A stretch of DNA of 52,597 nucleotides. Origin: Halocatena pleomorpha (GTDB taxonomy: Archaea > Halobacteriota > Halobacteria > Halobacteriales > Haloarculaceae). The stretch is taken from positions 1 to 52,597 of the forward strand of contig NZ_RRCH01000001.1 of NCBI RefSeq assembly GCF_003862495.1, read 5' to 3'. The position numbers and the translations under genes are program-made. Shown one piece after another: positions 28,673 to 40,025 of this stretch (positions are counted from its first letter, which is position 1; each line of letters starts with the position of its first letter). The notes below the pieces were generated by a model. That model saw only the letters and a list, made by a program, of their open reading frames with translations, ran no database searches and was not told where the DNA came from.

Positions 28673-29137
28673 AACAACAATAAAAATCTACCGTCGTGGC
28701 GAACGGGGGACTACTTGCCAAGCGATGACGAACTGCGTACTAGCACGTACGAAACGACGGTGCATGCCCGTGCGGTTGATCCCGAGTTCCGGGCGACAGT
28801 GCTCGCCCGGTACGACCAGACGTGCCCGCTCTCCGGGGTCGATCAGCCGGGACTGTTGGACGTAGCACATGTGCTGTCGTGGCGTGACTATCCAGAACAT
28901 AGAGCGGATTTGGCGAACGTGTTGGCACTGAGTAAAACCCATCATGCTGCCTTCGACCGGGGCCTGTTCACGATTGACCGTAATTATCGACTATGTGTGA
29001 ATCCGTCATTCGAGACCGAAAGCGATCTGTTGCAACGAACGATTATCGAACGAGCTGGTGAACGAGTCGAACTGCCTGCAACGTACTTGAATTCTGAGTA
29101 CATGGCACAGCACAATGCAGCGCTTGAATGGGTATGA
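28673..29137 (+). pseudogene. HNH endonuclease, C-terminal part (5' truncated)
   Basis: The frame codes for a typical HNH_2-type C-terminal domain: VLARYDQTCPLSGVDQPGLL, DVAHVLSWRDYPEHRADLAN, and VLALSKTHHAAFDRGLFTI, with Cys and His of the metal site, ending HNAALEWV. Related haloarchaeal proteins carry another 150 or so residues before this. Here the frame continues upstream only into the antisense of the DUF106 gene (which starts at 28655), with Arg-rich residues that look unlike coding. So the gene has probably lost its 5' half. A short functional form starting within this frame cannot be excluded. Confidence 0.6.
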
Positions 29138-29189
29138 GGATAACCACCACAACGAGCCTGAATTGTGGTCTGATCGACGGGGGCAGCGC

Positions 29190-29355
29190 TCCGTAGCTGT
29201 CCATATTCCGTCTGGCAGCGTCGGCGTCGGTGTGTTCCGATCGACCGGTGCAGACACCCCGGATTGGGAGTGAACAACCACGTGACGAGTCGGGGATCAC
29301 ACACCACCATTTCCAGTGTTTCCTGATCGTGCGCCAGCCGATCAGTTGCGCTCGG
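29190..29355. repeat. Diverged 160-bp repeat, copy B
   Basis: Partner of 26298-26460. It starts GTAGCTGTCCATATTCCGTC and ends at CCGATCAGTTG. It contains the motif ACACCACCATTTCCAGTG (29301-29319), which resembles the motif cluster at 36750-36840. Confidence 0.6.
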
Positions 29356-29604
29356 GACACACCATCTGCAATATGAAGAACGTCCCGATGAAACCGTTTG
29401 TGAGGCCTCTCTCATTCCCTCTCGGTTCGGTGTTGTCGTCTCTACGCGCGAGGATGAATGTATTCGACGTTTATATCATACCGATAGTCACCATGTCGGT
29501 AATACACACCAACTCAATGAATATACTATCATGACGACCGAGAAAATCGATATGACCGTCAATTCATCCTTTCTGTGCTGATTCCAAATAATGCAGTACT
29601 CTGG

Positions 29605-29937
29605 TTACAGTTTCATGAGCTGTACTGCCAGCGTTCGCAGTTCGGTTACCTCATCGAGTGCTGCCAGTCAGCGGTCGGGAAGCGCAGTTGCCCCGAAGCG
29701 GGCTCCGGCGATAGCTTCGGTGACAGCGCCGATCGTATCTGTATCACCTCCTCGATTCACACTCCGCACGATCGCCTCCTCACCGTCTGCTGCCCGGAGT
29801 CCATCGTACAGTGCCGTCTGGAGGGTATGAAGCACGTAGCCCGATGTCGGAAGTGACTCTAGTTCGCTCCCGTGAGCAATGGGTTCGAGTGCCGTAACGA
29901 GCTCCGCAGGTGCTTCAGATCGCATTAACAAAGTCAT
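29605..29937 (-). pseudogene. ADP-ribosylglycohydrolase, C-terminal remnant with in-frame stop
   Basis: The minus-strand frame contains SGYVLHTLQTALYDGLRAAD and RSVNRGGDTDTIGAVTEAIA, the C-terminal signature of the DraG/ADP-ribosylglycohydrolase family, where the GGDTDT aspartates bind the metal. It runs GARFGATALPDR, then meets TGA (29668-29670), and the same frame continues LAALDEVTELRTLAVQLMKL to TAA at 29605. A Trp is expected at that stop, so TGG became TGA. The upstream two thirds of the enzyme are missing. This is a clear remnant. Confidence 0.75.
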
Positions 29938-30362: not shown

Positions 30363-31106
30363 ATGGATATGGTGGTTCACGGGTCTCCAGAGGATGGTTC
30401 CGTCCCTGATCTCTCTGATGAGCAATACCTTGCATTGAGGGAGTTTGCGGCTCAACATATAGATGAGGGTACTTGTTCGACGACACCGTTACGCCTTGCG
30501 CGTGTAGTGGCATATAACAAACCGGCAACTCTCATTCTCACTCCTCCTGAGGTCACCCCACGCCCGGAACCGTCTCCGGAAGAGTATCTTGTTGACCTTC
30601 TCGATCGAATTGATTATCCATATCAGCAGTTTACTGGTCTCCCCGGCTGGATCGTCTCATCGTCACCCGGGCGGTTAGACCTCCTTCCGACCACTAAGAC
30701 TCCCTGCGATGCGTATCACCGACGGCTCGGAGTCGTGTTCGGATATCCTCGTGATGCGATTGACTATTTCATCGACGAAGACAAGTCTCAATCAACGAAG
30801 ATCGATCTTGTCCAGTCCGGCGAATTCGACGCAACAGAGGTAGCGTATACGACGTTCGTTTGCTATTCGTACCCCAAAACGCCAGAGAAATTTGAGCACC
30901 ATATCTTAGTCGGACGGGAGAACAGACGACAGATCAGCAAACTTGCCCGTACATGGGACCTGCCGGAACTTGACACACTCGCAGATAATGCCTATAACGA
31001 TGAGATGAGAGTCTTGAAGGAGGGTGAGAGGCCATCCACCTCTACCCAGACCATCAAGTTCGATTGGAAGGCGGGACAACAAATTTCAGACTATAGTCGC
31101 AACTGA
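30363..31106 (+). CDS. Hypothetical protein
   Basis: A 247-residue soluble protein of acidic haloarchaeal composition with no motif I recognise. The N-terminal half has LSDEQYLALREFAAQHIDEG and a proline-rich stretch TPPEVTPRPEPSPEEYLVDL. The centre reads YHRRLGVVFGYPRDAIDYFI, followed by FVCYSYPKTPEKFEHHILVG, and a polar C-terminus. The sequence resembles conserved haloarchaeal hypotheticals. The start could be 30363 or the Met two codons on. It converges with the zinc microprotein with one base between the stop codons. Confidence 0.65.
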   Translation: MDMVVHGSPEDGSVPDLSDEQYLALREFAAQHIDEGTCSTTPLRLARVVAYNKPATLILTPPEVTPRPEPSPEEYLVDLLDRIDYPYQQFTGLPGWIVSSSPGRLDLLPTTKTPCDAYHRRLGVVFGYPRDAIDYFIDEDKSQSTKIDLVQSGEFDATEVAYTTFVCYSYPKTPEKFEHHILVGRENRRQISKLARTWDLPELDTLADNAYNDEMRVLKEGERPSTSTQTIKFDWKAGQQISDYSRN

Positions 31107-31107
31107 C

Positions 31108-31224
31108 CTATTTTGGGACAGTGGTACCACAGACCATGCATTCGTGAGTTCCGTTTCTGTGGGGATCCGTTATCTTATTCTTCGTCTTCATTTCACATTC
31201 CGGGCAATAGTTACGTTCGGCCAT
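31108..31224 (-). CDS. Zinc-ribbon microprotein (38 residues)
   Basis: A tiny open frame from ATG (31224) to TAG (31108). It has two CxxC knuckles, NYCPECEM (Cys7, Cys10) and HECMVCGTT (Cys29, Cys32), spaced as in single zinc ribbons. This is the layout of the zinc-finger micro-proteins known in haloarchaea. All four cysteines and a proline after the first are kept, the composition is polar and Lys-containing, and no stop or frameshift disturbs it. It converges on the hypothetical gene to its left, stops one base apart. Function unknown; such proteins are thought to act in regulation or protein contacts. Confidence 0.7.
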   Translation of the reverse strand: MAERNYCPECEMKTKNKITDPHRNGTHECMVCGTTVPK

Positions 31225-31569
31225 GATTTCACCGTAATGAGTGTAGCCAGCCAATCTCGGTGAGTCGGAGCACCGACACATTCATTGACTGACTACGTTA
31301 TTTAATTATCAAGAAAAGCAATATAATTTTCTATATTTTAAGTGAGATTAATGAGGGTGGCTCCGATGATGACTTCTAGCGAGTCAAGAATGCAAACTAT
31401 TCCTTGTTAGACTAGAAGGGGGATTGATGCTATCCGACATACATCGTGTTGGTTTGTTGCGGCCCTGTTGAATCACCAGACGGCTGCAGAATCAGTCACA
31501 GTTCGCCTGTGATGATGCAATTATCACGTGAGTAGAGTGACTTAGCTGCGATCGGGAGACGTGCTACTT
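31225..31569. other. Intergenic region with an IS4-type end relic
   Basis: About 345 bases; A/T-rich at 31300-31350. At 31459-31484 the sequence GGCCCTGTTGAATCACCAGA resembles GGCTCTGTTGACTCACTAGA at 40152-40171, the edge of the broken IS4-type element. It may mark an old insertion site. Nothing else was seen. Confidence 0.4.
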
Positions 31570-32304
31570 TCATCTGCGTCGGAGTCCCTGAAGGAAGTCG
31601 CGGATCTTCGTCAATGAAGTATTCACGAGAACGCTCTGCTTATGGCGAGCAAGATACCAGAATGCCTTCGGAACAAGCACGAGAAGCGGGAATCCGAACA
31701 GTAGGAACACGCCGTCCCTTGTGGAATCTGATGGCCCGAACAGCAGTCCGAAGATGCTGACCAGGATCAGGACGGCTGAAACGACCGCACTTCCGGCGAA
31801 CCAACGATTGAGCGGTGGGAGATCAACCGAGCGGAGACGGAGATCAAACGCCTCAACAAGTCGGTCGGGGTCGTCAACTGGCCCCAGCGTTCATTCCTCA
31901 TCGTCGTCCCGGCCAACGGTCACGGTGAACGTTCGTGTTCCGAACCACCGATCCGGAAATACGGTGTCTACGACTGCGACGTTACGGAGGGTTTCGACGG
32001 GCGCACTCCACTGTGGTTCGTCCGTCAGTCGATCGACGGCGACGAACTGGTCGTCGATGCGGCGATAGGTCATCCACCCGGTTGCAAGGATGGATTCAAT
32101 GACGTCACCGCTAAACAGTATTCCGAACAGCACCATCGCAACCAGGACGCTTTCGAGGAGAACCGAGTCGGTTGGGTCGTTTCCGGCGAGTAAGGCGAGC
32201 CAAACGAGCCAGACTATCGTGACCATGCTGACGTAGAACGGTCCTGTCTTCGTGACAGCTCGCCAGACCGCTGTGGCCGCGGTTGATCGCCAATCGACAT
32301 CGAC
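31570..32304 (-). pseudogene. PH-like (bacterial PH/YdbS-type) membrane protein split by an in-frame TGA
   Basis: The minus-strand frame from VDVDWRSTAATAVWRAVTKT through two hydrophobic segments (FYVSMVTIVWLVWLALLAG and SVLVAMVLFGILFSG), DDQFVAVDRLTDEPQWSAPV and DRWFGTRTFTVTVGRDDDEE reaches TGA at 31889-31891. The same frame then continues TLGPVDDPDRLVEAFDLRLR, another membrane segment and ends at TGA 31570. DEE-stop-TLGPVDDPDRL reads naturally with Trp in place of the stop, so TGG became TGA. The true start is also unclear: the expected initiator near VDVDW reads GTC, and upstream frame is not protein-like. Family assignment (PH-like membrane domain) is tentative; the pseudogene status is fairly sure. 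Confidence 0.6.
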
Positions 32305-38381: not shown

Positions 38382-40013
38382 TCACGAACTGCCGAGATAA
38401 CGCCACGCCACTACGCCGACGCCAGTGAGGGTCATCAGAATACCGAACCCCGGGCCGTCGGTAGTCGTTGTCGAGGGGTCCGTGCTGGGAGAATCCTTGG
38501 TTATTGATGGCTCGGTGGGAGCTTCCTCAGTTGGGCTGTCGGTAGTCGCTGTTGAGGAGGCCGTACTGGGAGAATCCTTGGTTGTTGATGGCTCGGTGAG
38601 AGTTTCCTCAGTTGGGCTGTCGGTTTCAACGGTTAGTTTGTCTGTATCGTCGGGCTGGGACGGTTCCGCTGTATTATCCTTTTGTTGATCAGTGTCGTCT
38701 GGTTTGGGAGTCGGCGTCGCCCCCTTCTGTGTTTGAGAGCCTTTCATCACAATTAGGCGACTGTCCATGCCAACGTCTCTAAAGTACATCTGGCCGCCGG
38801 CGACGGCCCGTAACACAGTTCCAGCGGCCGCCCCCGGTTTGATTTTCTGTGTCCACACGATCGACCCATCGGTTGGGTTGAGTCCAACACTGCCGACGTA
38901 TAACAGCTCTCCGACCCGGGCCATGCCCCTTCTCAGAACGTACTTTCCGGACGTATTGTCTTTCGAGGGTTGCGGAAGGGATGTTCGCCACCGCTTGTTG
39001 CCATTTGTCCGATCGAGCGCAATGATATCGTCCGTATCAGAATCGATCTGGATGTACAGCCGCTTTGCGTCGGTTGTTCCGATGCTCAGGCGAGAATATT
39101 TATACGATTGTTTCCACTGCTGTTCTCCTGTCGCCGCATCAAGCGCGATGATGGACGGTCCGGCTGTGTTATTCAGAAATAGCGTTCCGTCGGACACCAT
39201 GGCGACCGATGGATCTTCCACGTCGGGGAGTGCCTCCCAGACGACGTCGCCACTCGTCGCGTCGAGCGCTCTGACACCGGTTTGCTCTTTGACAACTACG
39301 ATACCGTCGGCGACGACCGGTGTGTGCCCCGGCCGTCCATCACTGTTGTGTGGAACTGTACTCTGTTGTCGCCAGCGCACTGATCCATCAGAGGGGTTGA
39401 GTGCGTACACGAATCGATCCCAGCTACCGTCGAGATCTGGACCAGTCGTATAGATGGTTCCGTCAACCGCTGTCACGTCGGAGAATCCGGCTCCTACTGG
39501 TGCGTCGATCCGCCACACTTTTTCGCCACTGTCTGCGTCCACAGCGACCATGGCTGCGTGCCGGGGATCGTCATCGTCGAAAATGCTCATCCGAACCGGG
39601 GCAAACACAACCCCATTCATCACCGTTGGGCTCTTCACATCAGAGACCGCACCTCCATGAAGGCCATCTGGAACATCAGCTACGAATTCCCACTGTGTGG
39701 TGCCGTCGGCTGCATCGAATGCGGCCAGTTTGTCGCCAGCGCCGTACACAGTTCCGTCAACGACGCAAACTGAATCACGCTCGTGAAACCCGGCGAAGTG
39801 ACCTATCCAGGCGTTCGTGATCTCTCCCGTCGGACCGACGCCGTCTGCGAAATGTGCGTTGTAGGCTGTGTTCCCCTTCGGGTGTGTCCACTGCTCTTCG
39901 CCAATCGCGTCCGATGTCGCCTGTATGGGTGTGCTCTTACTGTAGAGGACACTAGCGGCAGTCACTGCGCCAACTGTTCCGGAGAGAAACGATCGTCGAC
40001 TGATTTGCCCCAT
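38382..40013 (-). CDS. Secreted PQQ-type beta-propeller protein with PGF-CTERM anchor
   Basis: A 543-residue surface protein. A Tat signal lies at the start (SRRSFLSG, Arg6-Arg7, then the hydrophobic GTVGAVTAASVLYS). Residues about 40-430 are repeated beta-propeller blades of the PQQ/BamB type with W-turns such as ALDATSGDVVWEALPD, AATGEQQWKQSYK and RTNGNKRWRTSLP. A Thr/Ser/Asp-rich spacer with two near-identical blocks (TEEPSTTKDSPSTASS-like) follows, and the end carries PGF, a hydrophobic stretch and basic tail WRYLGSS, the archaeosortase A signal. It is thus likely to be processed and lipid-anchored at the cell surface. ATG at 40013 has GGAG six bases upstream; a Met four codons earlier exists. 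Function unknown; it could assemble envelope proteins or bind a ligand. Confidence 0.85.
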   Translation of the reverse strand: MGQISRRSFLSGTVGAVTAASVLYSKSTPIQATSDAIGEEQWTHPKGNTAYNAHFADGVGPTGEITNAWIGHFAGFHERDSVCVVDGTVYGAGDKLAAFDAADGTTQWEFVADVPDGLHGGAVSDVKSPTVMNGVVFAPVRMSIFDDDDPRHAAMVAVDADSGEKVWRIDAPVGAGFSDVTAVDGTIYTTGPDLDGSWDRFVYALNPSDGSVRWRQQSTVPHNSDGRPGHTPVVADGIVVVKEQTGVRALDATSGDVVWEALPDVEDPSVAMVSDGTLFLNNTAGPSIIALDAATGEQQWKQSYKYSRLSIGTTDAKRLYIQIDSDTDDIIALDRTNGNKRWRTSLPQPSKDNTSGKYVLRRGMARVGELLYVGSVGLNPTDGSIVWTQKIKPGAAAGTVLRAVAGGQMYFRDVGMDSRLIVMKGSQTQKGATPTPKPDDTDQQKDNTAEPSQPDDTDKLTVETDSPTEETLTEPSTTKDSPSTASSTATTDSPTEEAPTEPSITKDSPSTDPSTTTTDGPGFGILMTLTGVGVVAWRYLGSS

Positions 40014-40025
40014 TTGAATCTCCAT

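Follow-up and report, generated by a model that had tools for sequence, protein, structure and literature searches.

The 52,597-bp stretch of Halocatena pleomorpha DNA analysed here (hereafter, the window) makes up all of contig C1, one of the 61 contigs of a 3.65-Mb genome. It contains genes of the ordinary chromosomal kind, such as those for a metal-transporting ATPase, carotenoid synthesis, cytochrome bd oxidase and a peroxidase. A first-pass annotation, made from the sequence alone, had singled out a 38-residue zinc-ribbon microprotein in an intergenic region surrounded by decayed genes. The frame is present with its ATG, its stop codon and the two knuckles CPEC and CMVC, and lies on the minus strand, which the annotation had not specified (Table 1). 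Translation of the minus strand from 31224 to 31108 gives MAERNYCPECEMKTKNKITDPHRNGTHECMVCGTTVPK followed by the stop codon; CPEC occupies residues 7–10 and CMVC residues 29–32, with 18 residues between CPECE and CMVCG, and no such frame exists on the plus strand across this interval. The description of the surroundings as decayed applies to the decayed and repeated DNA further to the left and right, but not to the nearest neighbour, an intact gene for a 247-aa protein. The microprotein gene is no lone intergenic ORF; together with this neighbour it makes up a two-gene module that recurs.

Table 1. Features at the microprotein locus (window coordinates)
Feature	Position	Strand	Remarks
Partner gene, 247 aa, intact	30363..31106	+	Stop 1 bp from microprotein stop, tail-to-tail
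Cys4 zinc-ribbon microprotein gene, 38 aa	31108..31224	-	Stop codon 31108–31110; from translation, relatives and profile
In-frame longer reading, 57 aa	31111..31281	-	ATG at 31281; not favoured
GGTGA, possible Shine-Dalgarno sequence	31229..31233	-	4 bases before microprotein ATG; read from sequence, function putative
A/T-rich AATTAAAT, possible TATA-like element	31300..31307	-	About 75 bases upstream of microprotein ATG; weak candidate

Nothing corresponding to the 19 additional residues of the longer reading is present in the paralogous ribbons described below. We favour the 38-aa start because in those paralogues that lie stop-to-stop with their neighbour, the first cysteine follows within a few residues of the start. 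A sigma-70-type promoter scan yielded matches at chance level, such a consensus not being meaningful for archaea.

To the left of the module, a segment from about 28,730 to 29,916 is found again, at 79–94%, on several of this genome's contigs and on contigs of relatives. Part of an HNH endonuclease ORF falls within this repeat, as does, on the minus strand at 29668–29937, what looks by eye like a fragment of an ADP-ribosylglycohydrolase-like gene. To the right, the 105 bp at 31,500–31,604 share 77–90% identity with a portion of the AAA-ATPase/orc1-cdc6 genes carried by plasmids from several haloarchaeal genera and, judged from that identity, are a relic of a plasmid ATPase gene. No copy of the module was found at the nucleotide level, apart from a 60-bp stretch of the partner gene. 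Two tandem repeats were also noted in the window: an 81-bp unit repeated 2.1 times at 38452–38624, within a PQQ beta-propeller gene (38382–40025), and a 27-bp unit repeated 3.3 times at the contig end (52509–52597).

Class of the microprotein and direct searches

CPxCG-related small zinc fingers have been defined as proteins of fewer than 100 residues with two Cys/His pairs 7–40 apart, at least one of which is CPxCG-like, meaning CPxCG, CPxCx or CxxCG (PMC2253796). The microprotein has 38 residues, or 57 at most, and its pairs are CPECE and CMVCG; by this published sequence definition it is a CPxCG-related small zinc finger, and the first-pass assignment to a known class of haloarchaeal zinc-finger microproteins agrees with this. 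The motif alone is no proof of zinc binding: of 14 H. volcanii CPxCG proteins tested for it, only 9 bound the metal (PMC11241148). Examples of the class are Brz (PMC2253796), HVO_2753, HVO_0758 and the 43–49 such proteins of Haloferax volcanii (PMC6562870, PMC10716476, PMC11241148). Like these, the microprotein has a single domain of fewer than 70 aa with two Cys pairs 7–40 apart in a CPxC/CxxCG pattern; however, whereas those have been described as single genes, the window microprotein is part of a module that is specific to its lineage and includes a defined large partner. The novelty lies in the partnered, multicopy module of Halocatena/Actinarchaeum relatives, the microprotein itself being of the known CPxCG class. 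The suggestion that so short a gene could be missed by annotation is in line with the PLSDB gene table (incomplete by its own description), which has no gene for two paralogous ribbons on deposited plasmids.

Searching 146 genomes of the family with the 38-aa sequence revealed no convincing standalone relative, although 78 of the 146 had some match at E ≤ 1. The best match outside the window (E 6e-4) was a Cys-rich stretch within an 898-aa frame, which is not a standalone relative. At the level of the order (392 genomes), two ORFs of 36 aa (G158 L032 and G198 L034) stood out, at 44 and 47% identity. These ORFs come from another family of the order and resemble the window ribbon: they start with MA and contain CPEC...CSVCGT, the identity extending over most of their length. 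They differ in that the partner-family profile (see below) has no match in the order sample outside genera g1 and g6. A profile composed of these two ORFs and the window ribbon matched 65 of the 392 genomes at E ≤ 0.001, but the matches constitute a broad class of generic small ribbons and were not taken as orthologues. Several small ribbon ORFs matched this profile in G429 (six matches, on C6, C7 and C10) and in G437 (three, on C1), which may represent another local expansion.

Other collections added little. The 38-aa search gave nothing significant in plasmid and phage collections, and the 57-aa frame, used in patterned scans of genome_contigs and viral_contigs, had no match. Against the zinc-ribbon families of Pfam and NCBIfam, the window ribbon scored below the cut-offs (best Pfam family, DUF7129, 18.1 versus 30 bits; best NCBIfam family, 17.9 versus 32), and PHROGs returned weak or sub-threshold matches only. 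With PADLOC, the ribbon had a single weak match (E 0.0023), and six partner proteins had no match. The anticipated homologues with conserved cysteines in other genomes hence did not convincingly emerge from the 38-aa search; they were reached instead by a module search guided by the neighbouring gene, which identified 17 other stop-to-stop relatives in seven genomes of the genus, four of them lacking one cysteine.

The partner family and its ribbons

The 247-aa partner protein belongs to no named family in Pfam, NCBIfam or PHROGs. In a search of 195 related genomes, its family was detected at 43 places in seven genomes, that is, in all seven members of the genus (g1) searched. These include Actinarchaeum halophilum YIM 93972, a hypha- and spore-forming haloarchaeon (PMC10067837), YIM A00010, YIM A00013 and Halocatena salina AD-1. 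A profile built from 14 partner paralogues likewise found the family in 7 of 7 genus genomes, whereas outside the genus, among 392 genomes of the order, it produced short partial matches in four genomes of genus g6. The g6 proteins (L139–L142, about 241–245 aa) match the C-terminal half of the partner in a profile–profile comparison (84 columns, probability 95%, E 1.8e-8), but they occur as one match per genome, and the short loci read contain no adjacent ribbon of the window type. On these sequence comparisons the partner family is multicopy and, as far as tested, genus-limited. There are up to 14 diverged matches per genome, many of them on plasmid-sized contigs, and none was found in the viral_contigs scan.

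Attempts to relate the partner to known proteins were unsuccessful. Two to three paralogues resemble DUF3793 (PF12672) weakly at an RRLGxxLGYP motif (best E 0.0086); at 13.5 bits (L097) and 12.9 bits (L107), their scores are far below the Pfam cut-off of 25.1, and we rejected this assignment. The one DUF3793 match in the organism's own genome was not above the cut-off either. The structure model of the window partner is poor (mean pLDDT 62.1, pTM 0.65) and that of a relative, L128, is better (pLDDT 80.5, pTM 0.81); according to this best model, the fold is predicted to be mostly helical with a few short strands. Neither model had a Foldseek match in the PDB at E ≤ 0.001. VIA-align returned 46 chains at Z ≥ 2 but none at 5, and the best (Z 4.2, 110 residues, 4.8 A) was not accepted as a structural relative; nor do we believe a sequence-profile match to NFRKB chains (E 0.0017 over 34 residues). 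Three partner proteins carry an additional domain, at the N terminus in L097 and at the C terminus in L103 and L104, and these domains look mutually similar by eye.

When the DNA surrounding all 43 partner places was read for ribbon ORFs, a Cys4 ribbon ORF of 31–46 aa was found within 250 bp of the partner at 30 of them. When the flanks of these loci were scanned by the same rule, 12 such ORFs turned up in 154,058 bases, from which 1.67 would be expected at the 43 places. The count of 30 includes one ribbon twice, as it sits between two partner genes. As the 43 places are paralogues, those from G040 and G041 being near copies of each other, they are not independent and a Poisson value should not be taken literally, but the contrast is still very large. 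Several layouts occur: (i) at 14 places, including the window, the ribbon (32–40 aa) lies opposite the partner and stop-to-stop, with the stops −12 to +3 bases apart; (ii) at 10 places it lies opposite the partner but 75–178 bases further away; and (iii) at six it is co-directional with the partner, three times downstream and three times upstream. Four more places have a stop-to-stop ribbon that lacks one cysteine (including L101), and 9 of the 43 have no recognizable ribbon, some with intact partners. Conversely, no partner could be detected in the 5 kb read around one ribbon (G000:C28:16612). A comparison of 40 loci revealed no third gene common to them. Since the window pair is convergent, microprotein and partner are not co-transcribed there. 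Among open-licence PMC papers, we found none on this gene pair.

Fourteen distinct stop-to-stop ribbons were aligned: 13 with four cysteines, one identical copy having been dropped, and L101, which has lost one. The other 13 are only 21–37% identical to the window ribbon and differ widely, yet they keep the pattern CxxC...NG...CxxC: C7, C10, N24, G25 and C32 are invariant, and C29 is missing only in L101 (13 of 14). In the seven genus genomes, a profile of these 14 ribbons gave 19 matches at E ≤ 1e-4. Of these, 18 adjoin a partner gene, three of the 18 having been absent from the profile; the next matches in rank lie in long frames of 354–411 aa, which we take to be TFB. Across the 146 family genomes, the profile matched in the seven genus genomes alone, with none in the other 139. 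Leave-one-out profiles (239 kb) recovered every group, the window ribbon being the weakest, with a modest score (E 6.2e-4); the window ribbon is the most divergent of the set.

Divergence and decay of the two genes

Summed over four close ribbon pairs, there are 22 synonymous changes in 80.2 sites but just 9 nonsynonymous ones in 354.8; the window ribbon has no close relative of its own, and these counts come from other pairs of the family. For the partner, one ribbon-bearing pair showed 12.5 nonsynonymous changes over 524.3 sites and 31.5 synonymous changes over 174.7, and a ribbon-less pair (L087/L122) showed 38.0 over 592.7 and 54.0 over 202.3, respectively. Distances among ribbons and among their partners were correlated in a Mantel test (r = 0.865, n = 14; r = 0.693 with near-duplicates removed, n = 11; p = 5e-5 each), none of 20,000 permutations reaching as high a value in either case. 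For a second layout, in which an element of about 115 bp lies between partner and ribbon, the correlation was weak (r = 0.36, p = 0.048, n = 10).

At two of the four places where the ribbon has lost a cysteine, the partner is damaged as well: the partner at G044:C1:168730 is split into two frames, and that at L157 reads on where the partner of its homologue L092 stops earlier. At the other two, the partner frame is open. The net charge per 100 aa is +3.5 for ribbons and −4.8 for partners; this opposition between roughly neutral to basic ribbons and acidic partners is only suggestive.

Together, the two genes form a module that has been multiplied and has diverged within one genus, and whose members are adjacent in any orientation, co-diverge and sometimes co-decay. 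The recurrence of a ribbon beside the partner, the retention of CxxC...NG...CxxC, the synonymous excess and the correlated distances indicate that the microprotein is a real protein-coding gene and half of this module.

Possible roles of the pair and flanks of the second layout

We propose, with a probability of about 0.55, that the ORF is a real Cys4 zinc-ribbon microprotein gene whose product is the dedicated small partner of the convergently encoded 247-aa protein. Its four cysteines would hold one metal ion, probably zinc; the folded ribbon would bind its own cognate partner and then switch or target it; and the module would be a self-contained regulator/effector unit, moving and being lost as one. 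Since at least one partner gene that has no ribbon remains under purifying selection, the acting component is probably the large protein, with the ribbon as its cognate modulator, and that protein is probably not a toxin that always needs the ribbon. More tentatively, and with the balance slightly against it, the pair might represent a new two-gene system, with a partner of about 230 aa, in which each ribbon is specific for its own partner and the copies serve as parallel specificity switches or conflict modules.

The adjacency maintained in several orientations, the many diverged copies, many of which are on plasmid-sized contigs, and the joint occurrence of Cys loss and damaged partners in two of four Cys-losing ribbons would also suit a toxin-antitoxin-like or intragenomic-conflict module, in which the ribbon would neutralize its cognate large protein, the latter being harmful or acting to block a competitor element. 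At three places the ribbon gene even precedes the partner in the same direction, but these are just 3 of 43, and the window genes are adjacent but convergent, with no operon, rather than adjacent and co-transcribed. As ribbon-less partners exist, L087/L122 being under selection without a ribbon, and the window partner has no match in PADLOC, Pfam or NCBIfam, we consider such a module unlikely. The co-divergence of the two proteins suggests contact between ribbon and partner, and a regulator acting at promoters only would not need it. It thus speaks against a Brz-type ribbon, which would regulate transcription of the neighbour or of distant genes through contacts with DNA or RNA polymerase, making no contact with the partner protein. 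Brz itself, a small CPxCG zinc finger of Halobacterium salinarum, adjoins and regulates its target, and bat homologues are also accompanied by small zinc finger genes (PMC2253796). However, the main layout places the ribbon gene next to its neighbour's 3' end instead of upstream, and the convergent window pair, with stops 1 bp apart, differs from a regulator encoded upstream of its target and in the same direction; we regard a Brz-type role as doubtful.

That the ORF merely arose as an open frame by chance, or is a relic without present function in a plastic intergenic region, appears highly improbable. We counted ORFs of 30–60 aa that start with ATG and contain two CxxC motifs 7–40 apart, one being CPxC or CxxCG: the window has one, as compared to a mean of 0.06 in 200 first-order Markov resamples, 6% of which had one. 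At about 6% per window, the Cys pattern by itself is borderline, only weakly beyond chance, and the region is a mosaic, with repeated DNA on the left and the plasmid ATPase-gene remnant on the right. Nevertheless, the stops of the ORF and of the partner are exactly 1 bp apart, paralogues of this partner have a ribbon in the same position, the ORF retains the signature residues, and close pairs of the family, although not the window copy, which has no close relative, are under purifying selection.

Small proteins encoded beside a dedicated larger partner are also found among MqsA-type zinc-ribbon antitoxins and the XRE/DUF397 pairs of Streptomyces, the latter being likewise multicopy in a hyphal organism. 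The resemblance of these systems to the dedicated-partner module is a general one; the module differs in being mainly convergent. Haloarchaea have dozens of tiny CPxCG zinc fingers, the targets of which are mostly obscure, and for one branch of these a specific partner can now be named from adjacency, co-divergence and partial co-decay, which makes binding between zinc microprotein and partner directly testable. The analysis also brings to light a genus-limited family of considerable size in a lineage that has attracted study for its hyphae and spores, and demonstrates that ribbons can be found through their neighbour where a search with the 38-aa sequence fails.

Further observations concern the second layout. 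Its conserved element of about 115 bp, GTCGTCGCCGACC ... CCAGCCACGG ... GGGGAnnATCCCCGCTAC ... CCGTGTTCGTC, extends from the partner stop codon to near the ribbon (L089, L095, L097, L100, L107, L109, L110, L102 and L106). When folded, it forms 13 pairs, three of which have two-sided changes, with a weak covariation term (+0.36); it is possibly an RNA, a terminator or a recombination site. Just upstream of the ribbon starts at L089, L100 and L110, there is a hairpin-like sequence, GGATTCGATCCTGTGGTAAAAGGATGAGTCC, with variants; it looks paired by eye and shows apparent compensatory changes. Finally, L095 and L097, on one plasmid of Actinarchaeum halophilum, have near-identical DNA upstream of ribbons whose proteins are strongly different, as if the coding parts were exchanged, or were diverging fast, between fixed flanks.
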